Positions 14,345 through 38,074 of a DNA stretch of 48,548 nucleotides are shown piece by piece; position 1 is the first letter of the stretch; each line of letters starts with the position of its first letter. The stretch comes from a virus. Made by a program: the position numbers and the translations under genes. The notes under the pieces were generated by a model, which searched no databases, was not told the DNA's origin, and worked only from the letters and a program-made list of their open reading frames with translations. The stretch spans positions 1-48,548 of the IMG/VR virus record IMGVR_UViG_3300038548_000183, one strand, 5' to 3'.

Positions 14345-14383
14345 TTTGTTTTCTCCTTCGTTGTTTTTGTTTCGGTTAATCAT

Positions 14384-14421
14384 CTATATACATAATACCC
14401 GACCGGCTCGCTTTTTGTCAA
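14384..14421 (-). promoter_or_regulatory. Promoter P1 of the nine-copy family
   Basis: Minus strand: TTGACA at 14421-14416, 18-bp spacer with GAGCCGGTCGGG, TATTAT at 14397-14392, then 8 bp to ATG 14383. An A-rich element (TCTTAAAAAG) lies upstream. It begins directly after the stop of the 14429-14680 gene. Confidence 0.85.
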
Positions 14422-14428
14422 GGTCTTT

Positions 14429-14680
14429 TTAAGATTTATTTTCGAGCTTCTCCCAGGCCCGGAAGCCGGCGGCCGAGACGACGATCCCGTCGGGATCATG
14501 GCGGTACTCCAGGAGGCCGCGGCGGAAGAGGCCCTCGGTCGATCGGAAATCGAGAGAGTCGATTACCATCGGATGGGCCGGCCCTTTGCTCTCTCCGTAA
14601 TACTTGCCGGCGACCTTCCGGGTCGCCCGTACCAGAATATCCAATTGATTCGCCTGGGCTCGAGTCATCGGCTTACGCAT
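14429..14680 (-). CDS. Small winged-helix-like hypothetical protein
   Basis: 83 residues. RAQANQLDILVRATRK, SLDFRSTEGLFRRGLLEYRHD and IVVSAAGFRAWEKLE resemble the helix/helix/wing pattern of small winged-helix proteins, so DNA binding is possible. GGGAGC lies about 9 nt before ATG 14680. Ends just before promoter P1. Confidence 0.65.
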   Translation of the reverse strand: MRKPMTRAQANQLDILVRATRKVAGKYYGESKGPAHPMVIDSLDFRSTEGLFRRGLLEYRHDPDGIVVSAAGFRAWEKLENKS

Positions 14681-14683
14681 TTC

Positions 14684-15076
14684 TTAAAGCTCCCTCGAAG
14701 AAACGACCTTGACCGAGACCGTCGTCCGGCCCGTACCGCGGCCGCCGTCTCGCATCGCGGTTACCAGGACGGTAAACTCTCGAGCGGGAAAATGCTCGCC
14801 GACCTTCCGGGCTCGGAAGGTCATCTCTTTACCGACGAGCTCGTCGGCTCCGACCAGGTAATCGAAGACGTTTCTCGTCGGCGAGGAGACCCGCATCTTA
14901 TTGGTGTTACCGTATGCCATTCCGTGACCGACGGCGAAGCCCATCGTCGCGCCGTTTTCGAAGTGAACCAGGTAAGCCGAGCTATTAAGCCGCGGCGCCG
15001 AATTGAATTCCTGGACCGTCCCGTCGGCGTACCGGCCGGCTTCGTTTTCGTTTGTGTTTTTCGTTGTTTCTCTCAT
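14684..15076 (-). CDS. Hypothetical protein, leaderless start (P2)
   Basis: 130 residues from ATG 15076. No ribosome-binding site lies before it; the ATG is 6 bp after the TATTAT box, so A of the ATG should be the first transcribed base. The N-terminus MRETTKNTNENEAG matches other members of the leader family. The body is beta-rich (SAYLVHFENGATMGFAV, NVFDYLVGADELVGKEMTF, REFTVLVTAMRD). Function unknown. Confidence 0.72.
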   Translation of the reverse strand: MRETTKNTNENEAGRYADGTVQEFNSAPRLNSSAYLVHFENGATMGFAVGHGMAYGNTNKMRVSSPTRNVFDYLVGADELVGKEMTFRARKVGEHFPAREFTVLVTAMRDGGRGTGRTTVSVKVVSSREL

Positions 15077-15142
15077 ACTTCTATAATACCCGACTGGCTC
15101 GGTTTTTGTCAAGGGAAATCGTACTTTTTTTACGATTTATTT
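15077..15142 (-). promoter_or_regulatory. Promoter P2 with A-rich upstream element
   Basis: TTGACA at 15112-15107, 18-bp spacer CCGAGCCAGTCGGG-type, TATTAT at 15088-15083, ATG after 6 bp. Upstream to 15142 is an AT-rich element in which AAATCGTA and TACGATTT form an 8-bp inverted repeat around seven bases (mostly A); this may also end the previous transcript. Confidence 0.85.
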
Positions 15143-15445
15143 TTAAGTGAATTCGACGCCCTCCTCCGACGCCGGCGGAGCCATGAGCTTTTTATAAAGG
15201 GCCTCCCGGATATAGTCGTCGATCCCGGTCACGTCTTCGTAATGGTAAAGCCCGGATCCGTACCGGCCTTCCTGCCAGGTCTTATGGTCGACGTCGACCA
15301 GGACGGACCGGACAGTCTTCTCGCCCCGCGGGCCCGAGTAAATTTGGATCGTACCGAAGCCGTCGTAATTCTCCGGCGCCTCGGTCTCCATCGCGACGTA
15401 TGTCCGCTCGAAGGTCCCGAGCTTTATCTCAATCTTGCTTATCAT
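15143..15445 (-). CDS. Hypothetical protein
   Basis: 100 residues; ATG 15445 with AAAGGAGAGACCAAA upstream, the same leader wording as the 16084 gene. Begins ISKIEIKLGTFERTYVAMET, later FGTIQIYSGPRGEKTVRS, then VDHKTWQEGRYGSGLYHYED. No family recognised. Confidence 0.72.
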   Translation of the reverse strand: MISKIEIKLGTFERTYVAMETEAPENYDGFGTIQIYSGPRGEKTVRSVLVDVDHKTWQEGRYGSGLYHYEDVTGIDDYIREALYKKLMAPPASEEGVEFT

Positions 15446-15465
15446 TTTGGTCTCTCCTTTTCGTC

Positions 15466-15484
15466 GGGCCGGAGCTCCCGGCCC
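15466..15484 (-). other. Intercistronic GC hairpin
   Basis: Perfect 7-bp stem GGGCCGG/CCGGCCC with a 5-nt loop, between the stop at 15489 and the ribosome-binding site of the 15445 gene. No T-tract follows on the minus strand, so it is not a classical terminator. Related hairpins occur at 16118, 19740 and 20315. Confidence 0.55.
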
Positions 15485-15488
15485 TGGT

Positions 15489-15734
15489 TTAAATTATCTC
15501 GACCCAGAAGACCGAGCCCGGCCCGGTGACCCCATTCCGAAAGACCTCTTTGATCTCCGTAAGGATCCAGGTCGTTACGTCGTACTTCGCCTCGAGTTTA
15601 TTCGCGGCCTCGAGCGCCTGGGCCCTGGTCGAGAATCGAAGAGAGCCGACCCGGCCGGCGATCTCCTTCCCGAGTACCGTCTTCCCTTCATGCGGTCCGC
15701 GGTCCAGGACCGCGGCCGGGAATTGTCTTTCCAT
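15489..15734 (-). CDS. Hypothetical protein
   Basis: 81 residues; the ATG overlaps the previous stop as TAATG. Contains LGKEIAGRVGSLRFSTRAQALEAANKLEAKYDVTTWILTE split over two helices with a beta segment, an alpha/beta pattern. Unrecognised; translated with the 15734-16084 gene. Confidence 0.7.
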   Translation of the reverse strand: MERQFPAAVLDRGPHEGKTVLGKEIAGRVGSLRFSTRAQALEAANKLEAKYDVTTWILTEIKEVFRNGVTGPGSVFWVEII

Positions 15735-16084
15735 TACTGGCCGGTCTTCTTCCGTCGCTCCGCCTGGGCTCCTCGCCGATAGCCGACTTTGAAAGATTCG
15801 TTACTCTCCCTCTCGAGCTTCTCGGTCTCGGTCTCGCCCAGGTCTTTATCGATCCCCAGGCGCTTGACGTAATCCCTTCGAAGCCTCTTATCCATTCGGA
15901 GGCCGACCCGGATCGCCTTCTTAATCTCCTCGAAGATGAAAGCCTCGCCGCCGTCGCCGTCCATATCTTCGGGATAAACTTTTATCCCGCGGACGTTGGC
16001 GCCGTTTAAGGCCGTGATTCTTACCTCGACCGAGAGCTCCTTTTCGAAAGGCGTCGGTCCAGGTTTGATTTTTTCGTTGCTCAT
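15734..16084 (-). CDS. Hypothetical protein, helical and charged
   Basis: 116 residues from ATG 16084 after AAAGGAGAGACCAAA. N-terminal beta part (ELSVEVRITALNGANVRGIKVY), acidic DMDGDGGEAFIFEEIKK, then a basic helical C-terminus (MDKRLRRDYVKRLG, GYRRGAQAERRKKTGQ). No family recognised. Confidence 0.7.
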   Translation of the reverse strand: MSNEKIKPGPTPFEKELSVEVRITALNGANVRGIKVYPEDMDGDGGEAFIFEEIKKAIRVGLRMDKRLRRDYVKRLGIDKDLGETETEKLERESNESFKVGYRRGAQAERRKKTGQ

Positions 16085-16117
16085 TTTGGTCTCTCCTTTT
16101 TCGTTGTATTGAGTTAA

Positions 16118-16140
16118 GCCCGGACGACCATCGCCCGGGC
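16118..16140 (-). other. Intercistronic GC hairpin
   Basis: GCCCGG (16118-16123) pairs with CCGGGC (16135-16140) around an 11-nt loop. It lies between the 16172 stop and the ribosome-binding site of the 16084 gene, with no T-tract. Confidence 0.5.
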
Positions 16141-16171
16141 CCTGGCGCCGCATCGGTCCGCGGCGATTTCG

Positions 16172-16372
16172 TTATTCGTCGCCGGCCGGATTAAAAGAAT
16201 GGCCGGCGGCGATGACCTTCCGATTCCGACCGACGACCTTTAATCCCTTGAGCCGTAAGACCCATTTGAGATCGTCCAGGTCGTTAAAAAGACGTTGATC
16301 GTCCAGGTCGATAATCGAGTCGCCCATCATGACGACGAAGCATTGATTTACCGGAAGAAATACGATATGCAT
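16172..16372 (-). CDS. Hypothetical protein after promoter P3
   Basis: 66 residues from ATG 16372, which has an excellent site AGGAGG at 7 nt. A leaderless in-frame ATG at 16441 (8 bp after the -10 box) would add 23 residues (MKETTKTKTETPAR...). Core: MHIVFLPVNQCFVVMMGDS, DLDDQRLFNDLDDLKWVLRL, KGLKVVGRNRKVI. Unrecognised. Confidence 0.7.
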   Translation of the reverse strand: MHIVFLPVNQCFVVMMGDSIIDLDDQRLFNDLDDLKWVLRLKGLKVVGRNRKVIAAGHSFNPAGDE

Positions 16373-16441
16373 TTCGAGCCTCCTATTTTGGCCGCGCATT
16401 CGAGCGGGCGTTTCGGTTTTGGTCTTCGTTGTTTCTTTCAT

Positions 16442-16479
16442 CTATATATAGAATACCAAACGCGCTCGGTTTATGTCAA
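16442..16479 (-). promoter_or_regulatory. Promoter P3 of the nine-copy family
   Basis: TTGACA at 16479-16474, 18-bp spacer beginning TAAACCGAGCGCG, TATTCT at 16455-16450, 8 bp to ATG 16441. An AT-rich element (AAAATAATTAAGATTTCC) lies directly upstream. Confidence 0.82.
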
Positions 16480-16547
16480 GGGAAATCTTAATTATTTTCA
16501 TTTTATTTTTTCGGCCTCCATCGATACGCCGAGGCCGGCGAAGACGA

Positions 16548-16784
16548 TCATCGGCCGGGCTCCTCATCGGGAAGAGCTCCGTAAGCTCCGCATCGAACGT
16601 GGTACCGAAGGATCTCCCAGCCGACCCGGCGGTCGTCGTAATACCGCTCGCCTTTTTCGATCCGGCCAGAGCATCGAGTCGGCCGGCCCCAAATTTTAAA
16701 GACTTCATGAGCATGGCAATCGTGAGATTTTCGAGCGGTCCGAATATCCAGGTCACCGACGCCGAGTAATTTCTCCGCCATCAT
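16548..16784 (-). CDS. Small zinc-binding-type protein
   Basis: 78 residues; ATG 16784 overlaps the upstream TGA as ATGA and follows GGGAG. Layout RTARKSHDCHAH, C-SGRIEKGERYYDD and RYHVRCGAYG suggests a Cys/His metal site of the type seen in small phage proteins; the plus-strand protein at 38412-38642 has a similar layout. Function unknown. Confidence 0.7.
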   Translation of the reverse strand: MMAEKLLGVGDLDIRTARKSHDCHAHEVFKIWGRPTRCSGRIEKGERYYDDRRVGWEILRYHVRCGAYGALPDEEPGR

Positions 16785-16978
16785 TGGCTCCCTTCTGCTT
16801 TTTGGATTTGTCGAAAAAGTGTAATCGCCTCGGCCTTCGATTCGCATCTTCGATCGGGTAAGCCGGGACCTCGCTCGAGGCGATACCGGCGAGAGCTCCG
16901 GCCGAATTCGGTCGTCGTAATCTCGACGACTTTGAGCCGGCCAGAGCGGGCGATAATCGATTGCTGGATTCGCATCAT
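16781..16978 (-). CDS. Hypothetical protein
   Basis: 65 residues; AAGGAGAAA immediately before ATG 16978. Beta-like VVEITTTEFGRSSRRYRLER and a C-terminal helix EAITLFRQIQKAE. Unrecognised; coupled by ATGA to the zinc protein. Confidence 0.68.
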   Translation of the reverse strand: MMRIQQSIIARSGRLKVVEITTTEFGRSSRRYRLERGPGLPDRRCESKAEAITLFRQIQKAEGSQ

Positions 16979-16985
16979 TTTCTCC

Positions 16986-17312
16986 TTATGCGAATTCGGC
17001 GAAGAGAGGATTCCGGGCCTCGCCGACCTGGCTTAAGAGGCTCGCCCATCCGCCATCGTTGCATCCCGCAAACGATCGACGATTCCATTCGGTCTTGACC
17101 TGGTCGGAAGGATGGGTCGTAAACCAAAAATCCTCGTTTACCGCGTCGACCTGGAAAGGGCCGAAGGCGGTATTTAAAACGGCGACGGCGCCGGCCTGGA
17201 GGCGACCGCGAAAGCGATCCATCTCGTCGGCCAGGGCCCCGCGGACCGCGACCATTCTCTCGTCGCGAGCCTTATCGGCCTCGCGCTTTTCTCGTCTCTC
17301 TTCTCTCGTCAT
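16986..17312 (-). CDS. Hypothetical protein
   Basis: 108 residues from ATG 17312 (GAGGAGAAAATGCC upstream). GTG 17348, overlapping the previous stop as GTGA, is an alternative that adds 12 residues. Charged helix TREERREKREADKARDERM, then AFGPFQVDAVNEDFWFTTHPSDQ. No family recognised. Confidence 0.68.
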   Translation of the reverse strand: MTREERREKREADKARDERMVAVRGALADEMDRFRGRLQAGAVAVLNTAFGPFQVDAVNEDFWFTTHPSDQVKTEWNRRSFAGCNDGGWASLLSQVGEARNPLFAEFA

Positions 17313-17344
17313 GGCATTTTCTCCTCTCGAAGTTTTGCCGGCTC

Positions 17345-17542
17345 TCACCATGAGCGCCGACCCGCGGCCCATTCGGCCTCGAATGTTTCTCGCATCTCCC
17401 GCCATCCCCATGATTCGGGAAAGGTCGCTCGGGTCGTTTCGGCGTCGAGCTCCTTATGCGTCATCCATCTTTCATCTTCGGCGCTCCAGGTCAGGCCCTC
17501 GGTCGCCGCGTTCGTTTCGGTCATCGTTGTTTCGTTACTCAT
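17345..17542 (-). CDS. Leaderless small acidic protein (P4)
   Basis: 65 residues from ATG 17542, 6 bp after the -10 box and without a ribosome-binding site. Starts MSNETTMTETNAATEG, a leader-family variant; the body has WSAEDERWMTHKELDAE and WREMRETFEAEW. Tryptophan-rich and acidic; unrecognised. Confidence 0.65.
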   Translation of the reverse strand: MSNETTMTETNAATEGLTWSAEDERWMTHKELDAETTRATFPESWGWREMRETFEAEWAAGRRSW

Positions 17543-17608
17543 ATATACAGTATAAGCGAAGGCGCTGGGTTATGTCAAGTGAAATCGTAATTATTTTCGA
17601 TTTATTTT
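17543..17608 (-). promoter_or_regulatory. Promoter P4 with A-rich upstream element
   Basis: TTGACA at 17578-17573, 18-bp spacer TAACCCAGCGCCTTCGCT, TATACT at 17554-17549, 6 bp to ATG. The upstream element contains AAATCG and CGATTT as an inverted repeat. The spacer is the most divergent in its second half. Confidence 0.82.
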
Positions 17609-18022
17609 TTACGAGTAATCGATCAAGTCGGCGGCGGCCTGGACGTCGCCGGCGGCGGCGGCGGACCTTAAGCCTCGATGCCGGTCGGCCTCGAGGCGAT
17701 TTACCTCGACGGCCTTCTCGACCAGGCGAGAGAAATAAGCCTTGGCGCCTTTCGAAGTCTTGAAAAATTTGACGGTATACCGGCCGCTCCGTTTCCAGGT
17801 CGAGCCCTTGACGCGGCCGCGGGTCATATCCTTAATCGCATCTTCGACGAAGAGGCCAGGGCCGACCGCAAATTTAAATCCCTTGACCAGGCCGAGCCGG
17901 TCGTAAGATTTCAGGAGCCGGCTCTTAAGGATCGCCGGAGCCATCCCGGTATTTATGCATCCGTAAAAGTCGGGACCGACGAAGAATTTTCCGAGCGGTA
18001 ATCTGACGGGTAATTTTTTCAT
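17609..18022 (-). CDS. Hypothetical basic protein
   Basis: 137 residues from ATG 18022 (AAAGGAAAAACCGAA upstream). Contains LGKFFVGPDFYGCINTG, KGFKFAVGPGLFVEDAIKDM, SGRYTVKFFKTSKGAKAYF and an alanine-rich end. Unrecognised. Confidence 0.68.
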   Translation of the reverse strand: MKKLPVRLPLGKFFVGPDFYGCINTGMAPAILKSRLLKSYDRLGLVKGFKFAVGPGLFVEDAIKDMTRGRVKGSTWKRSGRYTVKFFKTSKGAKAYFSRLVEKAVEVNRLEADRHRGLRSAAAAGDVQAAADLIDYS

Positions 18023-18052
18023 TTCGGTTTTTCCTTTCGTTGGGGATCTCAA

Positions 18053-18319
18053 TTAAAAAACTTCGAAGGCGGGCGCCGTCCATTCCATCATCATCGAGTC
18101 ATCGGACTGGCGGACGATGCGGGCCCGGGAAATGTAAGGGATAAATCCGAGGCCGTCGCCGACGTGGGAATTCACTCCGCCAGGGCGGAAGGATTCATTT
18201 AAATGCCGGACGTGAGCCTCGAGGCGGGCGGTCGTCGCTTGGCCTTTCCAGGCGGCGGCGGTCATATTGGTATTGCTGTGAAACTCGATCCGATATTTCG
18301 GTGTAAAAGATTTTCCCAT
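18053..18319 (-). CDS. Hypothetical protein
   Basis: 88 residues from ATG 18319, preceded by GGAGCAACGAA that overlaps the stop of the 31-residue leader gene, so the two should be coupled. KYRIEFHSNTNMTAAAWKG, ARLEAHVRHLNESF, then beta-like ARIVRQSDDSMMMEWT. Unrecognised. Confidence 0.68.
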   Translation of the reverse strand: MGKSFTPKYRIEFHSNTNMTAAAWKGQATTARLEAHVRHLNESFRPGGVNSHVGDGLGFIPYISRARIVRQSDDSMMMEWTAPAFEVF

Positions 18320-18330
18320 TTCGTTGCTCC

Positions 18331-18426
18331 TTAAAAGATGATGAAGGTCGCGACCTGCATCGCCATGCTCCAAAAGGAAGCCGGCGCCGCGATCGCTTGG
18401 TTGATGTTTTTGATTACGTTTATCAT
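18331..18426 (-). CDS. Leaderless 31-residue peptide (P5)
   Basis: ATG 18426 lies 8 bp after the -10 box with no ribosome-binding site; stop TAA 18331. The peptide starts MINVIKNINQAIAAP and ends hydrophobic (SMAMQVATFIIF), possibly membrane-associated. It may be a leader that couples translation of the 18319 gene. Too short for family assignment. Confidence 0.5.
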   Translation of the reverse strand: MINVIKNINQAIAAPASFWSMAMQVATFIIF

Positions 18427-18480
18427 CTATATATATAATACCCGACGCGCTGGGTACTTGTCAAGGGAAATCGTACTTTT
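18427..18480 (-). promoter_or_regulatory. Promoter P5 of the nine-copy family
   Basis: TTGACA at 18464-18459, 18-bp spacer AGTACCCAGCGCGTCGGG, TATTAT at 18440-18435, 8 bp to ATG 18426. Upstream GTACGATTTCCC and long A-runs. Confidence 0.85.
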
Positions 18481-18493
18481 TTTCACTTTTTTT

Positions 18494-18709
18494 TTATTTC
18501 TTTTCTGGCCTCCTCCCGAGGTATTTCTCGGCCTTCTCGTAATCGATAAACGGATGGCGAAGGAGGATGATCCCTCGCTCGATTACCAGGCGCTCGAGCT
18601 CCGCGTAACCTTGGCAAATCGGCGACCCGTCGGCCCGATGGATCCATCCGCCGACCCGGCCGACGAGACCATGATGCTTTTTTAAATATCCCATGAGGCC
18701 GGCGGTCAT
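18494..18709 (-). CDS. Hypothetical protein
   Basis: 71 residues, ATGA overlap with the upstream gene. YLKKHHGLVGRVGGWIHRADG, CQGYAELERLVIERGIILL, then HPFIDYEKAEKYLG. Alpha/beta-like; unrecognised. Confidence 0.68.
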   Translation of the reverse strand: MTAGLMGYLKKHHGLVGRVGGWIHRADGSPICQGYAELERLVIERGIILLRHPFIDYEKAEKYLGRRPEKK

Positions 18710-18978
18710 GATTTTTTTACCTCATCGACCTGGGCGCCGGCGACGTCGCGATTTTCTTTCGTCCATATCATCCGAAATTCTTTCGTCACGACCTCAATCG
18801 GAAGGCTCTCGGTATAAAGCCGGGTATCCAATTGCTGGCGGACCAGGGCCTTAATTTTTTCGCCCAGGTCGAGATTATCCAGGGCCTCGACCGTATACGT
18901 CATCTCTTCGTTTCTCCGAGCCTCGCGAGCGTTGTCTGGGATTCGGATCGTCAATTTAATTTCGAGCATCTTAAGCAT
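18706..18978 (-). CDS. Hypothetical protein
   Basis: 90 residues; AAAGGAGAGAAAA before ATG 18978. N-terminal strand LEIKLTIRIPDNA, amphipathic middle EALDNLDLGEKIKALVRQQL, and IEVVTKEFRMIWTKENRD. Unrecognised; 8-nt overlap with the upstream gene. Confidence 0.7.
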   Translation of the reverse strand: MLKMLEIKLTIRIPDNAREARRNEEMTYTVEALDNLDLGEKIKALVRQQLDTRLYTESLPIEVVTKEFRMIWTKENRDVAGAQVDEVKKS

Positions 18979-19297
18979 TTTTCTCTCCTTTGTTTTTGGG
19001 AATGACCGCCAGGACCGAGTCGCAAAAATTGCCGGTCTTGGTCTCGGAGCATCGCGGGCATTTTCCGTTTACGTTTTCGAAGGATCGATGACCGCAAGTA
19101 AACTCGGAGATGAGCCTCGCTTCCTTCTGGGAGGCGATGAGCTCGACCGAGATCATATGGGCCTTACTCATATCCCCATCTCCGAATCGATTGACCCGGA
19201 AGCCGACGACGACGTCGAAGTCGAGGATCCGGGCCTCGCCCTTTTTCAAAAACCAAAAGGAGCGGCCGGTCGTTTCTGTTATGCGAAAAAATTTCAT
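18971..19297 (-). CDS. Hypothetical zinc-finger-like protein
   Basis: 108 residues; GAGGTCAACC before ATG 19297. Beta-rich N-terminus (FFRITETTGRSFWFLKKGEA), then FTCGHRSFENVNGKCPRCSE, a likely C-x-H...C-x-x-C zinc site near residues 68-83. Unrecognised. Confidence 0.7.
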   Translation of the reverse strand: MKFFRITETTGRSFWFLKKGEARILDFDVVVGFRVNRFGDGDMSKAHMISVELIASQKEARLISEFTCGHRSFENVNGKCPRCSETKTGNFCDSVLAVIPKNKGEKNA

Positions 19298-19307
19298 GGT
19301 TGACCTC

Positions 19308-19625
19308 TTAAGAAATGTAAGCGATTACTTCGAAGCGGCCGGAAGTCATCCGATACCAGGAGAGCGCCAGGACGAATTTCGTCGCCTCGAGGAGCTCGTC
19401 GGATCCGATCCCTTCATGATAGACGCCGACGTCAAAGAGACATTGGGCTTCGTCGCCGCAGAGCATCCCGGACCAAAGGGTCTTATCTTCCTGGATCAAA
19501 GCGAGGCCGTGATCTCGGAGGATGCGGTCGATACTCTCGAGCGGGATCCGGTCGTAATAAATCGGAGCGAGGAAGGTCGAGATGGCTTTATTCATTGAGC
19601 GTCGAAGGGCCGGTTTGTTTTTCAT
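19308..19625 (-). CDS. Hypothetical protein after promoter P6
   Basis: 105 residues from ATG 19625 (AAAGGAGAAAACGAA). The leaderless in-frame ATG 19655 adds MRETTKGENE, so both forms can be made from one mRNA. LDRIL-type helices, ALIQEDKTLWSGMLCGDEAQ, YHEGIGSDELLEATKFVLAL. Unrecognised. Confidence 0.7.
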   Translation of the reverse strand: MKNKPALRRSMNKAISTFLAPIYYDRIPLESIDRILRDHGLALIQEDKTLWSGMLCGDEAQCLFDVGVYHEGIGSDELLEATKFVLALSWYRMTSGRFEVIAYIS

Positions 19626-19655
19626 TTCGTTTTCTCCTTTGGTTGTTTCTCTCAT

Positions 19656-19722
19656 CTATATATATAATACCCGACGCGCTCGGTTTGTGTCAAGTAAAAT
19701 CGTATCTTTTTTCACTTTTTTT
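19656..19722 (-). promoter_or_regulatory. Promoter P6 with A-rich upstream element
   Basis: TTGACA at 19693-19688, 18-bp spacer CAAACCGAGCGCGTCGGG, TATTAT at 19669-19664, 8 bp to ATG 19655. Upstream GATACGATTTTAC preceded by AAAAAAAAGTGAAAAAA. Confidence 0.87.
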
Positions 19723-19739
19723 TAAGGGCCCCAGGAGGC

Positions 19740-19768
19740 CCCGCGGCCGGAGAATTCCAGGCCGCGGG
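19740..19768 (-). other. Strong GC hairpin after the 19778 gene
   Basis: Perfect 9-bp stem CCCGCGGCC/GGCCGCGGG with an 11-nt loop, 10 nt after the stop of the 19778-20293 gene. A second GC-rich fold and then A-runs follow; no T-tract on the minus strand. Possibly a terminator of another type or an mRNA-stabilising end. Confidence 0.55.
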
Positions 19769-19777
19769 AGGAGGGTA

Positions 19778-20293
19778 TTATTTCGGGATCCCGATCCCGC
19801 CGATGACGAAGAAGACTTCTCGGTCGCCGCAGGTCCCGGGCTCGACGTCATCCTCGCGGACCATCCCGGCCTTGACCATATCGCCGATGAGCTTCCAGTG
19901 AGAAGACCCGACGATCCGGCCGTCTTCGAAATGCTTGACCGTGATCGTCTGGCCGGCCAGGTAAAACTCGCGGATCATGATCGGCCGCATTCCGGGAGCG
20001 TAACCGTCATGGGCCCGGACCTGCTCGACCTCATACTGGAGCCGGGCGGTCTTCTTCTCGGCCGGCCCGAGATCCCGAGGGACGTATCCGGCCATCCGGC
20101 CGAAGCCGATATCGATGGTAAGCGGTACGGCGAAGGTCCAGTTTCGGATCGTCGTATCGATCTCGACGAATATCGTCATGGTCTTATTCTCGAATCGCTC
20201 TCTCCATTTCGCATCTTTCATCTTAATGAAGGCTTCGATCCGATCCATTTCCCGTTGTAATTCTCCGTGATTTTCGAATTCCAATTTTTTCAT
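19778..20293 (-). CDS. Hypothetical protein, 171 residues
   Basis: ATG 20293 after GAAGGAGAAAACGAA. N-terminal helix (EFENHGELQREMDRIEAFI), then beta-rich segments MTIFVEIDTTIRNWTFAVP, MIREFYLAGQTITVKHFEDG and a C-terminal VFFVIGGIGIPK. No family recognised. Last gene of the P7 transcript before the hairpin. Confidence 0.7.
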   Translation of the reverse strand: MKKLEFENHGELQREMDRIEAFIKMKDAKWRERFENKTMTIFVEIDTTIRNWTFAVPLTIDIGFGRMAGYVPRDLGPAEKKTARLQYEVEQVRAHDGYAPGMRPIMIREFYLAGQTITVKHFEDGRIVGSSHWKLIGDMVKAGMVREDDVEPGTCGDREVFFVIGGIGIPK

Positions 20294-20314
20294 TTCGTTT
20301 TCTCCTTCGTTGGC

Positions 20315-20334
20315 GGCGCCGGATCGCCGGCGCC
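20315..20334 (-). other. Intercistronic GC hairpin
   Basis: Perfect 8-bp stem GGCGCCGG/CCGGCGCC with a tetraloop, between the 20345 stop and the ribosome-binding site of the 20293 gene. No T-tract. Confidence 0.55.
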
Positions 20335-20344
20335 TGGTTTGTGT

Positions 20345-20626
20345 TTACTTGGCGTCGATGAATCCGCGGACGGTCCCGGTAAATTTTTCGTAAGAGGCTC
20401 GGCCGAAATCGTTGAAAGCCTCGATCGTGACGAAGCGCGTCCCGCCGTGACCTTCGTACTTGGAAGAGATGGCGATCTCGTCGACGTTGATCTCGCGACC
20501 GTCGTCCATTTGGATCTCGACATGGTCGCCCCATCGGTCGCTTTTCAATTCGGTGATCGTCCCGAAGCCCTCGTCGTTTGCCATATCGCCGGTGTAATAA
20601 ATGCGAAGACCTGTTTCCAATTTCAT
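20345..20626 (-). CDS. Hypothetical protein after promoter P7
   Basis: 93 residues from ATG 20626 (GAAGGAGAAAACGAG); the leader ATG 20671 is in frame and adds 15 residues (MLNVIENKNNEGENE). Beta-rich: MKLETGLRIYYTGDMAN, GFGTITELKSDRWGDHVEIQMDDG-type segments, FVTIEAFNDFG. Small barrel-like fold possible; unrecognised. Confidence 0.7.
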   Translation of the reverse strand: MKLETGLRIYYTGDMANDEGFGTITELKSDRWGDHVEIQMDDGREINVDEIAISSKYEGHGGTRFVTIEAFNDFGRASYEKFTGTVRGFIDAK

Positions 20627-20671
20627 CTCGTTTTCTCCTTCGTTGTTTTTGTTTTCGATTACGTTTAACAT

Positions 20672-20755
20672 CTATCTATATAATACCCGACCCGCTGGGT
20701 TATGTCAAGGGAAATCGTATCTTTTTTCGATTTATTTTCACTTTTTTTTAAGGGT
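20672..20755 (-). promoter_or_regulatory. Promoter P7 with long A-rich upstream element
   Basis: TTGACA at 20708-20703, spacer of 17 bp here (TAACCCAGCGGGTCGGG), TATTAT at 20685-20680, 8 bp to ATG 20671. Upstream GATACGATTTCCC, AAATCGAAAAAA and AAAAAAAAGTG. Confidence 0.85.
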
Positions 20756-20800
20756 CTTAAACGGGCCCAGGAGAGGCAGGAAGGGATCGGGCAGGCCAGA

Positions 20801-21379: not shown

Positions 21380-21395
21380 GGGTTACCTCGAGAGG

Positions 21396-21427: not shown

Positions 21428-21489
21428 TCCAGAAAGAAGCTCTCTCTCGGCCAGGCAGGAGGCCAAGAAAAAGACCCCGGTAAATAATA

Positions 21490-31221: not shown

Positions 31222-31232
31222 CGCGGGCCCTC

Positions 31233-31697
31233 CTATATGAAATCGCGGACGGTAAGGTCGACAAAGGAATCGCGAATCGCTCTCGCAATCGGCGGATAAA
31301 TTCGCTCGTAAGCCTGGCGGGATTGCATGAGATTATCGGAGCCAGGCGAGACGAAATTCGTCCGAGGCATATCGCCGACCAAGATACAGCCGTCCGTATG
31401 GTCATCGTTGTTTCCGGTGTGAAAATAAATCCATTTGAAATTTTCGACCTCCGGGATCCAGAGCATACCTTTATGGAAAGAATACCTCTTCGCGTAAATC
31501 CCGTCGAGCTTGCCGGCGGTCCGCAGGCGAAGCCGATACGTCCCGGCCGGGATCCGAGTCTCGCCGAATTTCTTGATGGCTCTCTCCTCGTCTTCGAGGG
31601 TAAAGCATAAGAAGAGGAGAGGGTCCGAATTCCCTCGACGTAAAAGCCCGAGGGTATCCTCCGCCGAATTGCTGAAACGGTCCAGGTAAAGAAGCAT
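31233..31697 (-). CDS. DUF5675-like protein, probable cell-wall hydrolase
   Basis: 154 residues. CFTLEDEER, IPAGTYRLRLR, HKGMLWIPEV and IYFHTGNNDDHTDGCILVGD match the DUF5675 pattern, with histidine and cysteine placed like the H...C motif of L,D-transpeptidase folds. Such proteins replace endolysins in many phages. Its place next to holin-like and envelope proteins supports a lysis role. TGATG overlap with the upstream fibre gene. Confidence 0.72.
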   Translation of the reverse strand: MLLYLDRFSNSAEDTLGLLRRGNSDPLLFLCFTLEDEERAIKKFGETRIPAGTYRLRLRTAGKLDGIYAKRYSFHKGMLWIPEVENFKWIYFHTGNNDDHTDGCILVGDMPRTNFVSPGSDNLMQSRQAYERIYPPIARAIRDSFVDLTVRDFI

Positions 31698-32449
31698 CAG
31701 GCGGCCATCGTTATAACGTAATTGGTCTGGACGACCTCGCCGGTCGTCTTCGTTACGACGAGCCAGACGTCGCCGGCGGAAGAGTAAGCCGTATGGCCGC
31801 TCGAGTCTTCTCCATCGAGAGAGAATTCGTCGGCGTCGATAACCGTGATAACGAAGTCGCGGTCGTTTACTTCGGTCATCCCGACGACGTTGTCGATATG
31901 GATCTCGTCGCCGGTCGCCAGGTCATGATTTACCGACGTCGTTACGACGGCCGGATTTGCCTGGGTAATATTTGAGATCGAGAGCTTCTTAAATAGAGCA
32001 TGGGTGACCAGGTCGCCATTATCAAATTTGAGACCGATCTCGGAGATTCTTCCGACGGCCTCCAGAGAGAGCCAGACGACCGCGGCCTTTACGAGAGAGA
32101 GCCCCGCAGAGTCGGGAGTAATATCGTCATCGATCCAAAGGTCGATATCTTTCGAGTCGAGCTCGGCCTCGAGGATCGTATCGGTATCGAGCGGATCCGA
32201 GAGCCCGGACCCGACCGCGATTTGCTCGATTTGTCTTACCGAGCCCTGGATCGCCCGCCAGATTTTTATGAGCTCGATTTGCGCCAGGTCGATAATGACA
32301 TTCTGGCCGGTAATGAGCCGGCCGGAAGGCGTCCAGATTTGCCCGTCCGGCCTCCATATCGTCCCTGGCGGGATCTTCTCCGGCGTCTTGATGTTGATCT
32401 TATACTTCTGGACCTCGAAGCCCCATCCGATCCTCGCCATATCTCGCAT
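31697..32449 (-). CDS. Tail fibre-like protein with FCCH-type beta domain
   Basis: 250 residues. The C-terminal third has TTSVNHDLATGDEIHIDNVVGM-type and TVIDADEFSLDG segments, the pattern of the small beta domain shared by many phage fibres and ubiquitin-activating enzymes. The N-terminus contains WRPDGQIWTPSGRLITGQNVIIDLA. Predicted virion surface protein. GGAGG lies 5 nt before ATG 32449. Confidence 0.7.
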   Translation of the reverse strand: MRDMARIGWGFEVQKYKINIKTPEKIPPGTIWRPDGQIWTPSGRLITGQNVIIDLAQIELIKIWRAIQGSVRQIEQIAVGSGLSDPLDTDTILEAELDSKDIDLWIDDDITPDSAGLSLVKAAVVWLSLEAVGRISEIGLKFDNGDLVTHALFKKLSISNITQANPAVVTTSVNHDLATGDEIHIDNVVGMTEVNDRDFVITVIDADEFSLDGEDSSGHTAYSSAGDVWLVVTKTTGEVVQTNYVITMAA

Positions 32450-32461
32450 CTATTCCTCCGC

Positions 32462-32842
32462 TCAAAAAGAAAAAAGTTGTAATTGGATCTCCATTGTGAC
32501 CCCAAAAAATGCCCTTACCCCGGCCATCGCCACGGAAACCCGGTCGCCTTTTTTGAAATTGAAAGGTATATATTTGACGTGCCCCGTATCGTCAAATTCC
32601 AAACCGCCTCCGCTGGTAAATCCACAAAAGGATTTCCATTTTCTCTCCTCCTGATCCAACGGCCCGATCCCGATCTCTATATTGCCATCATCGTGTCCGC
32701 TTGTGGGAATCCAAAACCAAGAGATCATCGCCCACCTCGTATCGAATTCCACCACGTCGATTAACTCCTGCCACGGTCCCGGATTGTTCCTCGGAGGAAA
32801 CCCATTCCCGACGATAAGTTTTGGAGATAATTGTTGGCTCAT
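32462..32842 (-). CDS. Fibre-associated beta-sandwich protein (single domain)
   Basis: 126 residues from ATG 32842 (ATGA overlap). GPWQELIDVVEFDTRWAMIS, GNIEIGIGPLDQEE, YIPFNFKKGDRVSVAMAGV. It aligns by eye with both halves of the neighbouring 297-residue protein, so it is a third copy of the same domain. Probably a fibre or decoration protein. Confidence 0.7.
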   Translation of the reverse strand: MSQQLSPKLIVGNGFPPRNNPGPWQELIDVVEFDTRWAMISWFWIPTSGHDDGNIEIGIGPLDQEERKWKSFCGFTSGGGLEFDDTGHVKYIPFNFKKGDRVSVAMAGVRAFFGVTMEIQLQLFSF

Positions 32843-33732
32843 GGATTCCCCCAAAACGTCGCGGCAATCTTGAAGTCAATAAAATTCAAAACAGGATTTG
32901 CATTAACTTCTCTGAATACGGCGCCCCTGATCCAAACCGAGTCGCCCTTTTCCCAAGGGATCGGAAAATTCATAACGTCCGCCATGACTGAAACATGGAT
33001 GCCACCAAATCCTCCGCCCAAGCTCGTAAAGCCGACGTCGATTAACTCCGGCAAATTTGGCGGGGAGCCCTCCCCTGGTTGGACCGCCCCCAATTGCCAT
33101 CGCGCATTGAGCGTTGGATTCTGAATTGCGTCCGCACAAATCGAGAGCCAAGAGGCATTAAAACCGAGCCCCTCATTCGGTGTCGTCATCTCATACCAAA
33201 GGCCCAGGAGATTATCCCCAGGAAACCGAACGCCGGCCGGCGTCGTCGGCGCGTTTATGAATCCTCCGACCGGCTGGAAAAGAACGGTCGTGGAGAGATG
33301 GACCGTCGCCGGCCGGACCGGCTGGAATTGGTCGCTTACGGTCAAGAATAAAAGGATCTCCTGGATGCCCACCGCGCCCGTTACTTTTCTGCATCTCGCC
33401 CACAATTGATCCCCGGCCGAGAGCTTTAACGGGAAGGAGTAATTACAATTCGTCCCGCGGCCGCCGCCCGTTGAGCGGGCGTAAAATTTCATCGGGCCCC
33501 AGACAGTCTCGGCCGGCGGCGACGTCGGCCCGACCCCGATCTCCACGTCATGCTGAGTACCAATAAGTAAATCGACCCCCATCACCAACAAGGCCCAGGA
33601 GGAATCAAAAGTAATCGGATGGGTCGCCTGATTAACGCCCATAAATAAAGCCGTCCAGGGACCGAAAACTCCGACCGCTGAATCCGATGGAATTTCCACC
33701 TTCGACGATCCCGAGCTTTTAATTTCTGCCAT
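32839..33732 (-). CDS. Fibre-associated protein with two beta-sandwich domains
   Basis: 297 residues. Two copies of one domain: residues ~20-150 (GPWTALFMGV, HDVEIGVGPTSPPAETVWGP, FPLKLSAGDQLWARCRKVTG) and ~160-297 (LGLWYEMTTPNEGLGFNASW, PIPWEKGDSVWIRGAVFREV). With the following gene this makes three tandem copies. GGAGTTAATCG before the ATG. Likely a distal tail or fibre component. Confidence 0.72.
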   Translation of the reverse strand: MAEIKSSGSSKVEIPSDSAVGVFGPWTALFMGVNQATHPITFDSSWALLVMGVDLLIGTQHDVEIGVGPTSPPAETVWGPMKFYARSTGGGRGTNCNYSFPLKLSAGDQLWARCRKVTGAVGIQEILLFLTVSDQFQPVRPATVHLSTTVLFQPVGGFINAPTTPAGVRFPGDNLLGLWYEMTTPNEGLGFNASWLSICADAIQNPTLNARWQLGAVQPGEGSPPNLPELIDVGFTSLGGGFGGIHVSVMADVMNFPIPWEKGDSVWIRGAVFREVNANPVLNFIDFKIAATFWGNP

Positions 33733-33735
33733 CGA

Positions 33736-36700
33736 TTAACTCCAGAAAGTGAGATCGCCTAGCCAGTCGTGCGTTTGAGGTGCGCTCTCGGCTGGGCCGT
33801 CTTGGTTGTCTCTCGCCCTGACGAAGACCCGGTCGTCTTTTTGCCATCCTTCATACGGGAAGGAGTATTGCCTCGAGCTCCGACCATCGACCCCCTGCTG
33901 GTCTGTAATGATTGCGATCCCCTCCAGGACGGGCTCGACCTGGCCCGGGACGCCCCTCCCGAAATCCAGGATCCCGATCGTGGGAACCGGGACGCCTGGA
34001 AAGCCCCCGAATCCATTGGCGACCTCGATCGTAATCCACTTCGGAGTAAATGGCAGGACGACCGGATTTGGGAATCCGGTCACAGGCTCTTGACCCCCCA
34101 ATGGAGGCCGCCCGGTGAGCTCAAGCCAAAAGCCGTTTTCGAAGAGCCCATCGGCCGCAACGACTGGAAAGAAAAATTCGAGGCTCGTCGAATTGGTAAG
34201 CCCCAGGACCGGAGGCTCGACCCGAGCGACCGCGAAGACCCGGAGCTCTTTCGAGTCGGTCCGAAATTCTGTTTTCTGTATGAGGAATTCCCTATTCTCG
34301 TATCCTCGGCCGGAGGGATCCAGGCCCGAATAATTGGTGACGCCGATAAGCTCGGCGAGCTCGACGTCGGCCGTCCGACGATGGCCTGGTATGGTCATGA
34401 CGATGCGGAAAGATCCGGGATTTGAGAACTGTAAGAAATCCCTCGCGACCCGGTCGGCGACGAAATCATCGCGGACGAAAAAGAGCTTAAGGTCTTTACT
34501 CTCGACCCGTTGGAGAGAATCGACCGCGGCGTCGTCCCGGACATTTAAAAGGCCCTGCCAGGACTGCTCGGAAAACATACGGATATACTGGAGCTTGACC
34601 TCGTTAATGATCGGCCTCGCGAGCGAATGCGTCTCGCTTCGGACGTAAATATCCTGGACGTCGTCGAGGATAGTCCGGTCTGGATTCGAGCCGGCGATAT
34701 AGCGGATCGTAATCCGGCCGTCTTTGTTGGTAAAGAGGAAGATTCCGAAAGACCTGGTCATCCTGGCCAGGGCCTCCCGGTGATTCATCCGTTGAGTGAT
34801 CGCTCCATCGCAAAAGAAGCCGGGCGCCGGCCCTCCGGTCGCGACCTCGGCCATGATCTCGCCGGCGAAGTCGAAGCCGATAAGGTCGAGCTCCGTCCCG
34901 GGATCCCGTCCCGCGATTCTTGTCAGGTATAGGAGGATCGCCTCCGCAGGATTTCGGACCGGCGTCCCGAATTGGTCGCCCGTATCGGTCATCCCTTCGC
35001 CATCCCATCGGACCTCGAAGCCGTCGGCCTGGCCAGTCCCGAAAACGACGTGCGTAAAAATATAATCGATCCCGTCGATGGTCTTGGCGACCTCGACAAT
35101 CGAGAAGCCTCCGACCTGCTCGATAAAGGATTGATCCGGCTCCGGCCTCGCGTCAGGATCTTTAATAAAGATTCGGATCGGACCATGCGGGATAGGATGC
35201 TGGGCGAGATTAAAGGTCGTCGAGTCGAGGCGTACCGCATTCATTGAGCCGGTGACGTCGAGGCCCGTCGAGTCGAGGATCCCGAAGACGATCGGCGAAA
35301 AGATTTCCGTCTCGTCGAATCGGCCCTCGGTCCGCTGGCGGATATTTCTCGCGAAGACCGGGTCGGGCGTGAAATTCTCCCGGGTCAAAAGGTCGGGAAG
35401 TTTCTCCTGTAAAAACTTAAAAGTATTATCCGAGACCCGGAGCTTCGCCAGGCCCGGCGGGAAAGTCGCGTGTACGATGGTCCCGGTATATGCGATTTGA
35501 AAAATTGCCTCGCTCTCTCCTTCGCCTCCGATCTTGATGACGACCTCGCGATTCTGCGGAGGCGTCTCCGACATAAGCCGGCGGAGCTCGCCATCCGTAT
35601 CGACGATCGTGAGCTCGGCGTCGCCGATTTGAGCGAGGCCCGAAGGTACCTGGATCGATCGAATAATCGAGCCGAAAGACTTGACCTTCCCGACATACAT
35701 ACGGGTCGGATGGCGGATCCCTTTCGCGGCCCGGTAAAGCGTCCCGCCAGTAAGTTTAATCTCGGCGATAATCAAGGTCTTGGCGACCGAGACCGGGCCC
35801 TCGATAAACGAAGGCAGGGCTTCGCCCGTCAGGACGATCGCGTCGCCTGGGTCATTCTCGACGGCCACAAATGGGATAACGGAGCCGAATTCGGCGAAAT
35901 CTCCCAAGGCGACGGCGTCGAAGCCCGTCAGGATCCCGCCCGGTTGCTCCAGGCGCTCCGCCAGGCCCTCGTCGATAGTCAGGCCGGCCGTATCGGCCGC
36001 GGCCTTGGCGACGTCAATTGTCGACGTCTCGGGATCGGTCGCCAGGTCGATCGTATCGGTACCGACGATTTCCGTCGGCGGCGCCGGCGTCGCGTTTCTT
36101 ATCTCGATCCCAATTACGGCCATCGCCGCCGCGGCGCCGTTATGGCTCGCGTCGATCGTCGGAGGTATCGGCGGGTCGACCCGAAATTGAGCCTGGAGGC
36201 TCAGGCCGCCAGGCTCCTCGACGATCTCGGTAAATCCCGAGCCTGGCGTAAAATTGACATTACCGTGGACCCCAAATCCGCCGACGGCCGCATTCGCGGG
36301 ATCCCCAAAAATGGCCAGGGTCGCGGCAAGAGAGGTTACGGAGTCCGCGACATTGGTCTCGACCTGGACGATAGCGCCGGAGCCGTCGGTCCCGGAGGTA
36401 TCCATATTGTCGAATTCGACGATCGCCCAAAGGCCATCGCTCGCCCCCGACGAGAAGGTAATCGCGAGCCCGCCGGTCGAAGGCGAGGGATCCAGGGCCC
36501 GAAAAACAGCGAGGACCGATCGCTCGGTCCCATCGCCCGCGGATTTCTGATACTGGACCTCGGCGATTTTTACCCAGGTCAGGCCGGCGCCGGTGACCGA
36601 GACCACGGTCATATTTTCATTCTGGAAATTGTCGGCGCCGGAGATAAATGCCAGGATTAATTTATCCGCCCCTGGAGAAATCGAGGCCGTATTATAAACG

Positions 36701-36756
36701 ATATGATTCGCGGGATCATAAGCCGAGGTTAATAAGGTTTGAGTGATATCGGGCAT
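33736..36756 (-). CDS. Large tail-tip/baseplate hub protein
   Basis: 1,006 residues. Residues 1-230 form a domain shared with the 38863-39600 protein (both end IRNATPAPP or LRNATPAPP). Residues ~235-300 hold two units like those of the giant fibre repeat (TDTIDLATDPETS, ADTAGLTIDEGLAERL). The remainder (YRAAKGIRHPTRMYVGKVKS, GFFCDGAITQRMNHREALAR, RSFGIFLFTNKDGRITIRYI, SETHSLARPIINEVKLQYI) resembles tail-associated hub proteins of siphophages. It follows the tape measure module, as expected for a tail-tip protein. Specific enzymatic motifs are not seen. Confidence 0.75.
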   Translation of the reverse strand: MPDITQTLLTSAYDPANHIVYNTASISPGADKLILAFISGADNFQNENMTVVSVTGAGLTWVKIAEVQYQKSAGDGTERSVLAVFRALDPSPSTGGLAITFSSGASDGLWAIVEFDNMDTSGTDGSGAIVQVETNVADSVTSLAATLAIFGDPANAAVGGFGVHGNVNFTPGSGFTEIVEEPGGLSLQAQFRVDPPIPPTIDASHNGAAAAMAVIGIEIRNATPAPPTEIVGTDTIDLATDPETSTIDVAKAAADTAGLTIDEGLAERLEQPGGILTGFDAVALGDFAEFGSVIPFVAVENDPGDAIVLTGEALPSFIEGPVSVAKTLIIAEIKLTGGTLYRAAKGIRHPTRMYVGKVKSFGSIIRSIQVPSGLAQIGDAELTIVDTDGELRRLMSETPPQNREVVIKIGGEGESEAIFQIAYTGTIVHATFPPGLAKLRVSDNTFKFLQEKLPDLLTRENFTPDPVFARNIRQRTEGRFDETEIFSPIVFGILDSTGLDVTGSMNAVRLDSTTFNLAQHPIPHGPIRIFIKDPDARPEPDQSFIEQVGGFSIVEVAKTIDGIDYIFTHVVFGTGQADGFEVRWDGEGMTDTGDQFGTPVRNPAEAILLYLTRIAGRDPGTELDLIGFDFAGEIMAEVATGGPAPGFFCDGAITQRMNHREALARMTRSFGIFLFTNKDGRITIRYIAGSNPDRTILDDVQDIYVRSETHSLARPIINEVKLQYIRMFSEQSWQGLLNVRDDAAVDSLQRVESKDLKLFFVRDDFVADRVARDFLQFSNPGSFRIVMTIPGHRRTADVELAELIGVTNYSGLDPSGRGYENREFLIQKTEFRTDSKELRVFAVARVEPPVLGLTNSTSLEFFFPVVAADGLFENGFWLELTGRPPLGGQEPVTGFPNPVVLPFTPKWITIEVANGFGGFPGVPVPTIGILDFGRGVPGQVEPVLEGIAIITDQQGVDGRSSRQYSFPYEGWQKDDRVFVRARDNQDGPAESAPQTHDWLGDLTFWS

Positions 36757-36759
36757 ATC

Positions 36760-37494
36760 TTAAAGCTCGATCTCGGCGCCGAGACCCTCCTCGATTAAAG
36801 TCACGGCCCATTCGAAGACCGGATCGGGCGCCGGCTCGCTCTCCTCTCGAGGATTAAAGCCGGCCGTCTCGATCGAGACGAAGAGGCTCTCGACCGGGTC
36901 CGCCTGGGAATCGTTTTCGATCCAGACAAACGGATCGATCGATCCCGAGACGCCCTTCCAGAATGCCAGAAATTGGGCCCGCTCCGATTCCGGGAAGCGG
37001 AAAGAATAATCGCGCCGCTCGAGCTCGAATAATTCCAAGGCGTACCGCTTTCCTCGATTCGTCCGCTCTTGGATTGTCTCTTGCTGGATCCCGGGAGTAA
37101 ATCCGAATTGTATCCCGCGAGGGAGTACCGTCCGCCGGCCGACGACGAGCTCGCCGATTTGGGTCAGGGCCGAGTTACTATCGAGGATTTCAATCGAGAG
37201 AAATCGAAAGGTCTGGAGGGTCGGCTTCGAGACGATATTCTTCGCCCGGTAAGCCGGCGTATCGACGATCGTCGTCGGAGGAGAGGAGGCTCCGACCTTG
37301 ACCGTGATCGTCGCGACCGGGTCGAAATTATGGTTACCGATAAAGATCGTATCGAAGGTCCGAGGCGTCAGGAAATCGATCTCGATGGTCCCGCCGTTGA
37401 GGGAATTAAAACGAAAAGGCGCCGAGTAATCGCCGTCGATAAGATTCTCTTTTGGGAAGGTCGGGTCTTCGGACGTGACCGTAATAAGCGACAT
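36760..37494 (-). CDS. Distal tail-like protein
   Basis: 244 residues from ATG 37494. Begins SLITVTSEDPTFPKENLIDGD and TIEIDFLTPRTFDTIFIGNHN, a discoidin-like beta domain opening; later GKRYALELFELERRDYSFRFPESERAQFLAFW resembles distal tail/tail-assembly proteins. Lies between the tail genes and the hub protein. The start abuts the plus-strand P8 promoter region. Confidence 0.68.
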   Translation of the reverse strand: MSLITVTSEDPTFPKENLIDGDYSAPFRFNSLNGGTIEIDFLTPRTFDTIFIGNHNFDPVATITVKVGASSPPTTIVDTPAYRAKNIVSKPTLQTFRFLSIEILDSNSALTQIGELVVGRRTVLPRGIQFGFTPGIQQETIQERTNRGKRYALELFELERRDYSFRFPESERAQFLAFWKGVSGSIDPFVWIENDSQADPVESLFVSIETAGFNPREESEPAPDPVFEWAVTLIEEGLGAEIEL

Positions 37495-37499
37495 ATTTT

Positions 37500-37572
37500 G
37501 GCCTCGAAAATAAATCGAAAAAAGATACGATTTTGCTTGACAATAACCGAGCGAGTCGGGTATTATAGTAAT
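37500..37572 (+). promoter_or_regulatory. Promoter P8 (plus strand) of the nine-copy family
   Basis: TTGACA at 37537-37542, 18-bp spacer ATAACCGAGCGAGTCGGG, TATTAT at 37561-37566, 6 bp to ATG 37573. Upstream AAATAAATCGAAAAAAGATACGATTTTGC, split over the element, matches the minus-strand copies P6 and P7. Confidence 0.87.
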
Positions 37573-37788
37573 ATGATTAAAACAACGAAGACCCACGATG
37601 TTTGGATTAACGAAAACGAAATCGATCCCAGAGACGAAATCCTCGAGGAGCTCCGAGTAAGCCTGGTCGAGGAAGGGATCGTAATCCCGACCGACGACGA
37701 TTTTAATAACCCCGCCGTTAATACCGCGATGCTCCGCCGCCGCGACTTCGACGTCAATAACGGCCCGCTCGCCTGCGAGATCAAGTAA
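37573..37788 (+). CDS. Leaderless small acidic protein (P8)
   Basis: 71 residues. ATG 37573 is the predicted first transcribed base and has no ribosome-binding site. Starts MIKTTKTHDVWINENEID, the leader-family wording; the rest is acidic (DEILEELRVSLVEEGIVIP). Opens a five-gene plus-strand block within the minus-strand tail operon. Unrecognised. Confidence 0.68.
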   Translation: MIKTTKTHDVWINENEIDPRDEILEELRVSLVEEGIVIPTDDDFNNPAVNTAMLRRRDFDVNNGPLACEIK

Positions 37789-37808
37789 GAAAAAAAGGAG
37801 AAAACGAA

Positions 37809-38006
37809 ATGACCTTCGAAGATGAATACGCGGACCGAAAAGAAATCCCGATGACCATCGAAAACGACGAAGAAGTTATCTTCGTCAAATGCTGGGAATG
37901 CGAAGGCTCCGGCATTTACTCCAAGGCGACCCGATGGGAGCCCGCCGATAAATGCGACGCCTGCGAAGGGAATGGCGGTTACGAAAAAGTCGTCAAATCC
38001 GAGTAA
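37809..38006 (+). CDS. DnaJ-type zinc-finger protein
   Basis: 65 residues; AAAGGAGAAAACGAA before ATG 37809. Two C-x-x-C-x-G-x-G modules, CWECEGSGIY and CDACEGNGGY, as in the zinc centre of DnaJ. Acidic N-terminus. May bind a partner or peptide; function unknown. Confidence 0.72.
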   Translation: MTFEDEYADRKEIPMTIENDEEVIFVKCWECEGSGIYSKATRWEPADKCDACEGNGGYEKVVKSE

Positions 38007-38074
38007 AAATAAAAATGAAAAAAGATCGGTTTTTACTTGACTATAACCCAGCAAGTCGGGTATTCTATATATAG
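38001..38074 (+). promoter_or_regulatory. Promoter P9 (plus strand) of the nine-copy family
   Basis: TTGACT at 38037-38042, 18-bp spacer ATAACCCAGCAAGTCGGG, TATTCT at 38061-38066, 8 bp to an ATG at 38075. A-rich upstream element (AAAAATAAAAATGAAAAAAG). Confidence 0.83.

Follow-up and report, generated by a model that had tools for sequence, protein, structure and literature searches.

Why would a phage keep a set of promoters nearly identical, not only in their -35 and -10 boxes but also in the spacer between the boxes and in the sequence above them? The question is raised by a phage genome fragment, IMG/VR virus record IMGVR_UViG_3300038548_000183, which we analysed over its whole length of 48,548 bases (the window) and in which nine such sites lie on the minus strand at 14-21 kb and on the plus strand near 38 kb. 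A first-pass annotation of these letters read the conserved spacer as a sign of a phage regulator or of an operator shared by all of the promoters. We consider it probable, judging from the sequence, that the nine sites are instead copies of one promoter-plus-start-codon cassette, private to this phage and read by the main sigma70 RNA polymerase of its host.

Nine sites share one promoter cassette

All nine sites are present at the coordinates and on the strands first reported for them, and most details of their description held. The spacer is 18 bp in eight sites and 17 bp at 20672, and the -10 box is TATTAT in six sites, TATTCT in two (16442 and 38037) and TATACT in one (17543). The -35 box, reported as TTGACA throughout, is so in eight of the nine and is TTGACT at 38037. 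Most sites clearly show a conserved spacer core, (A)ACCnAGCnnGTCGGG, but three deviate from it: 14384, where the core reads AGCGAGCCGGTCGGG; 16442, where GTTTGG replaces GTCGGG; and 17543, the most diverged, which keeps only the left half. Similarly, the conserved block upstream is real, although the form first given for it, GATACGATTTCCC, is idealised; ACGATTT is exact in six sites, whereas 16442 has AAGATTT, 38037 has CGGTTTT and 14384 lacks the block. Above the block, A-tracts extend from about -66 to -47 in all nine sites. The cassettes and the open reading frames (ORFs) that they precede, some with a further start preceded by a Shine-Dalgarno sequence (SD), are as follows.

Cassette 1, 14360..14451 (-): -35 at 14421-14416, 18-bp spacer, -10 at 14397-14392, ATG at 14383; predicted to drive ORF 14063-14383 and the topoisomerase-like 13143-14063; upstream block diverged; second in-frame SD-ATG 39 nt downstream.
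Cassette 2, 15053..15142 (-): -35 at 15112-15107, -10 at 15088-15083, ATG at 15076; ORF 14684-15076 (130 aa), without an SD-preceded start.
Cassette 3, 16418..16509 (-): -35 at 16479-16474, -10 at 16455-16450 (TATTCT), ATG at 16441; ORF 16172-16441; in-frame SD-ATG 69 nt downstream.
Cassette 4, 17519..17608 (-), the most diverged spacer: -35 at 17578-17573, -10 at 17554-17549 (TATACT), ATG at 17542; ORF 17345-17542, without an SD start.
Cassette 5, 18403..18494 (-): -35 at 18464-18459, -10 at 18440-18435, ATG at 18426; a 31-aa ORF, then the SD-led 18053-18320.
Cassette 6, 19632..19723 (-): -35 at 19693-19688, -10 at 19669-19664, ATG at 19655; ORF 19308-19655; in-frame SD-ATG 30 nt downstream.
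Cassette 7, 20648..20738 (-), with the 17-bp spacer: -35 at 20708-20703, -10 at 20685-20680, ATG at 20671; ORF 20345-20671; in-frame SD-ATG 45 nt downstream, the start of the Mx1 homologue (see below).
Cassette 8, 37507..37596 (+): -35 at 37537-37542, -10 at 37561-37566, ATG at 37573; ORF 37573-37788 (71 aa), without an SD start.
Cassette 9, 38007..38098 (+): -35 at 38037-38042 (TTGACT), -10 at 38061-38066 (TATTCT), ATG at 38075; ORF 38075-38401; in-frame SD-ATG 48 nt downstream.

The repeated unit covers about 90 bp, from about -66 to +26, and its edges are sharp. Mean pairwise identity reaches 0.68 over the 30 bp upstream of the -35 box, 0.69 within the spacer and 0.61 over the 24 nt that begin with the ATG; beyond these limits it falls to 0.29 on the upstream side and 0.31 on the downstream side, compared to a random expectation of 0.26. 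Thus conservation in the spacer does not exceed that elsewhere in the cassette, and the extent of the unit matches what would be the footprint of RNA polymerase. Within the window the spacer block has a single orientation and a fixed distance to the -10 box, and the cassettes combine leader types (MRETTK, MxNVI) and discriminators in varied pairings.

The nine sites stand apart from everything else in the window. With a two-block matrix built from them, the sites score 39.5-60 bits, against 9.7 bits for the runner-up position in the window that overlaps none of them and 15.5 bits for the highest-scoring of 20 Markov genomes. Because this matrix had been trained on the sites themselves, we added an untrained test, in which all sigma70-like sites of the window were gathered and clustered by spacer and upstream similarity, without use of the motif; exactly the nine sites were returned as one cluster, and nothing else. 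A search of the window for the -35/-10/ATG arrangement also found these nine sites alone. The first-pass annotation had named a spacer block equally common elsewhere in the genome as the finding that would speak against it; the 8-mer GTCGGGTA occurs seven times in the window, all seven inside the promoters. By the same clustering, groups of similar promoters are nearly absent from ~60 other phage loci.

The set is also private, as far as searches reach. The scan of related contigs that had been proposed yielded no such promoter set, either in the records of 15 relatives or by de novo promoter clustering; the structural and replication genes have distant relatives, and the cassette is in none of those contigs. 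Among 2.9 million viral contigs, the cassette was not found by its spacer pattern, which had a single match in an unrelated contig, or by its -10/ATG pattern, which matched one AT-rich, unrelated contig. Neither a BLAST of the cassette nor two sample early proteins matched named phages, the fetched loci held no homologues of the early genes, and a literature text search found no mention of the upstream block.

Each promoter adjoins a start codon

The first-pass annotation missed that in all nine cassettes the -10 box ends 6 or 8 bp ahead of an in-frame ATG that opens an ORF, and that this ATG is followed by a conserved A/C-rich sequence, rich in A and CA. With the -10 box so close to the ATG, transcripts should start at the ATG or 2 nt before it, and would therefore be leaderless. 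In bacterial leaderless genes, TANNNT stands about 12 bp ahead of the start codon (PMC3160421), and CA-rich sequence or CA repeats near the start enhance (leaderless) translation (PMC9031893). The cassettes resemble such genes both in the -10 box, which lies 12 or 14 bp ahead of the ATG in all nine, and in the A/C-rich stretch after it (PMC3160421; PMC9031893). Moreover, three of the ORFs (14684-15076, 17345-17542 and 37573-37788) have no start preceded by an SD, and their reading frames score positive for coding. Private promoter sets are already known in phages; the unusual part here appears to be that every one of the nine copies has a start codon fixed where transcription is predicted to begin.

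We therefore favour a model in which a ~90-bp cassette, copied within this phage lineage, would be read by the main sigma70 RNA polymerase of the host. The cassette would form a very strong promoter, made up of the A-tract region (a probable UP element), ACGATTTnnC, TTGACA, an 18-bp spacer with a conserved GC-rich core, and TATTAT. Transcription would begin at the ATG or 2 nt ahead of it, with the A/C-rich stretch following, and the mRNAs would be leaderless or nearly so. Each promoter would open a short operon of small genes, so that these operons would be expressed jointly on entry without a phage factor, and the conservation would reflect polymerase contacts plus the shared descent of the copies. 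The hexamers are indeed near the sigma70 consensus at 17-18 bp. The terminase, compared with 84,980 genomes for host assignment, had no relative among them. No phage sigma factor, RNA polymerase or confident DNA-binding regulator was recognised among the ~60 proteins scanned (a subset of the ORFs), nor was an integrase or a lysogeny gene found among these. One part of the first interpretation is retained: the shared promoters are real by sequence, stand ahead of many small genes on both strands and are likely switched on together. Early regions of phages hold most of the unknown small genes for host takeover, and a promoter family that carries the start codon would be an objective marker of such genes, including those for which SD-based gene callers pick the wrong start; the cassette would also provide a portable promoter-plus-start module.

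Several observations weigh against this model. A canonical UP element has its A-tracts closer to the -35 box than these cassettes do, and the A-tract spacing is not that of the E. coli UP consensus. If the outlier 17543 is set aside, the deviations among the spacers are non-uniform (P = 0.005), for which polymerase contacts offer no obvious explanation. Unlike leaderless genes, five of the nine cassette ORFs also have a Shine-Dalgarno ATG downstream, 30-69 nt from the first ATG and in frame with it in all five (chance 0.004). Furthermore, the product of 20345-20671 has as its only homologue in a named phage a protein of Myxococcus phage Mx1 (35% identity), and this homologue begins exactly at the second ATG; thus, the protein there may not begin at the first ATG.

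These double starts bear on a different reading of the start-site ATG, namely that it belongs to a conserved initial transcribed sequence, or serves as an AUG for loading ribosomes, and that most of the proteins begin at the downstream Shine-Dalgarno ATG. We think this less likely than not. Besides the second starts and the Mx1 homologue, it would fit with the other genes of the phage, which are mostly SD-led (28 of 38), and with T4-like contigs (described below) in which the near-start ATG often runs in frame into an SD-led start or overlaps it. However, it would not account for the three ORFs, at sites 15077, 17543 and 37537, that have no SD-led start at all, and the common frame of all five double starts also speaks against it. 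In the five double-start genes, the role of the first ATG may be to extend the protein at its N terminus or only to load ribosomes. A repeated Shine-Dalgarno leader, (AACGA)AGGAGAAAACGAAATG, stands ahead of several genes (20310-20296, 20640-20626, 14358-14344, 37796-37809 and others); it looks like a second standard module and is sometimes joined directly to a promoter cassette.

The promoters resemble the early promoters of T4-type phages

The inference from a conserved spacer to a regulator rested on the premise that ordinary promoters do not conserve their spacers. The inference is not supported in that form: T4-type early promoters also conserve sequence beyond the -35 and -10 boxes and are read by the host sigma70 polymerase (PMC2988021, PMC1524935); spacer conservation alone is thus no proof of a regulator. 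Beyond the usual boxes, T4-type early promoters carry additional consensus sequence, and they are good competitors for host polymerase (PMC2988021); the variant differs from one T4-like phage to the next (PMC1524935). The promoters in the window are like these in forming a private set of many near-identical, presumably strong promoters ahead of small early genes, with near-consensus hexamers at 16-18 bp, UP-like A-rich sequence upstream, extended conservation and, we infer, recognition by host sigma70 polymerase (PMC2988021, PMC1524935). They differ in that T4 has a GTTTAC-type -35 box (PMC1524935), in that the CGATTTnnCTTGAC block is not in the first 50 kb of T4, and in that the promoter adjoins the start codon in this phage. 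The gene set, with its Erf annealing protein, tail completion protein gp17, primase and tape-measure protein, is not T4-like, and therefore we say that the promoters work like, not that they are, T4-type early promoters.

A closer match in layout comes from marine contigs (L101, L107, L109, L137 and L152) that were picked from viral contigs via the upstream block and are termed T4-like by inspection of their proteins. These carry TACGATTTnnC-TTGACA-N17-TATTAT, several per contig, with a conserved spacer end of their own (GTATGG) and a near-start ATG in many cases. They differ from the cassettes in the window in their 17-bp spacer with a TGn extended -10, in spacer sequence, in being AT-rich (GC 34-40%) and in their mostly SD-led starts. 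Two of their ORFs begin 6 nt after the -10 box and are probably leaderless, one DNA polymerase-like (L101, 7912-7950) and one zinc-binding and primase-like (L137, 11265, minus strand). The upstream block is found in 66 viral contigs versus 4 for the reversed block, and in Clostridia 8 times versus 0. However, a T-matched control, GCATTT, is found 7 times in the same Clostridia genomes, nearly as often as the block, and we therefore dropped the idea that ACGATTT is a general promoter element, the enrichment being mostly due to the T-run beside the -35 box. After this control, the layout in common with one marine T4-like family still stands as real.

An operator in the spacer and other explanations

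The discrete operator proposed to lie inside each promoter is not supported as first argued. Conservation spans the whole polymerase footprint and is equally high outside the spacer, and no stand-alone copies of an operator are present in the window. Of the dyads with a fixed centre in the spacer, even the best lacks significance (P = 0.13), and a dyad operator was therefore set aside. The zinc and winged-helix proteins suggested as regulators were not recognisable as such in protein scans; the product of 37809-38006 has a weak, below-cutoff, zinc-ribbon-like match. The lack of a confident regulator, integrase or lysogeny gene among the proteins scanned also speaks against an operator, although the early proteins are mostly without known function and the record is a fragment.

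Nevertheless, because the spacer columns vary unevenly and Mx1 has motifs embedded in its spacers, an operator keeps some weight. The spacer core, perhaps with the ACGATTT block, would then let one phage or host regulator turn the nine promoters on or off together, much as phage repressors act at repeated sites; we think this unlikely. In its favour, the deviations are concentrated in a few columns, and the GC-rich core lies between the -35 and -10 boxes, where a bound repressor would block polymerase. Nor is the absence of a dyad fatal, because asymmetric operators exist: the stoperators of Cluster A mycobacteriophages (L5-type) are asymmetric sites, specific to the phage and present in many copies, to which a single protein binds (PMC9283540). 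These stoperators are spread through the genome and bound by the immunity repressor, which has early lytic promoters among its targets (PMC9283540), whereas in this window stand-alone sites are absent and the proteins scanned include no recognised repressor.

The parallel in Mx1 (OR576727.2, record positions 60001-110000; locus L267) consists of 22 TTGAC-N17-TA promoters before small genes on the minus strand, at ~10-49 kb of the locus. GATC is present in all 22 spacers, compared to 3.8% of random 17-mers, and AGATCC or GGATCT in 20 of the 22, in either orientation and at shifting positions. This free orientation suggests a protein or methylation site rather than polymerase contacts, and the motif is possibly an operator or a methylation-sensitive switch; the literature searched held no paper about it. 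Mx1 is like this phage in its repeated promoters before small genes, in having a motif inside the spacer and in its homologue of one early protein; it is unlike it in the free orientation of the motif and in its SD-led leaders, and has no spacer sequence in common. Mx1 thus provides a separate example of a phage promoter family whose spacers hold a conserved motif. It makes an operator in the window more likely beforehand without showing one, and the parallel makes the role of a conserved spacer testable in a cultured phage. A broader proposal is that the spacer core binds a regulator, from phage or host, that lacks a helix-turn-helix and switches nine leaderless operons as one, with spacer-embedded operators (GTCGGG here, RGATCY in Mx1) being a general, undescribed wiring of small early genes to one signal; this we regard as distinctly improbable.

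The opposite extreme, that the spacers are alike only through recent duplication or gene conversion of the copies and are under no selection, is somewhat unlikely in our judgement. The sharp ends of the conserved unit and the mixing of leader types and discriminators are what recombination would give, and the spacer deviations of all nine sites fit a uniform model (P = 0.13). However, the non-uniformity seen when 17543 is set aside has a counterpart in the upstream 30 bp (P = 0.004), and several columns vary across sites beside invariant neighbours. Selection has likely acted on particular spacer positions, whatever its agent. Finally, private and near-identical sites are typical of phage-specific promoters that the host holoenzyme alone does not serve, but here the hexamers are near the sigma70 consensus and the scans of the window, although of a fragment, found no gene for a polymerase or sigma factor; we consider such promoters very improbable. 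A host-sigma70 cassette that carries its own start codon thus remains our preferred explanation.

Other features of the phage record

The phage genes recognised in the record encode a terminase, a tape-measure protein, a tail completion protein, a primase, a helicase, an Erf-type annealing protein and a ParB-methyltransferase fusion. That the record is a fragment is evident from a contig (L061), ~91% identical across window positions 1-6112, that extends ~3.2 kb beyond the left end of the window. Terminators between the operons showed no clear excess compared to shuffles. Just upstream of the small-gene region, a strong hairpin at 21430-21401 (-) resembles an intrinsic terminator (12 pairs, then T-rich).

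The fusion protein (3709-4926, minus strand) joins a DNA methyltransferase to a ParB-like domain (phrog_498, E 5e-103) and might act on the promoter DNA of the phage. A probable structural protein (31697-32449, minus strand) matches the Pfam family E1_FCCH (PF16190) above cutoff, a family name unexpected for a phage. The two plus-strand cassettes lie in a moron-like island of 1.3 kb (37507-38866) that holds five small genes and sits within a minus-strand block of structural genes; the genes of the island carry the same promoters as those of the 14-21 kb region.

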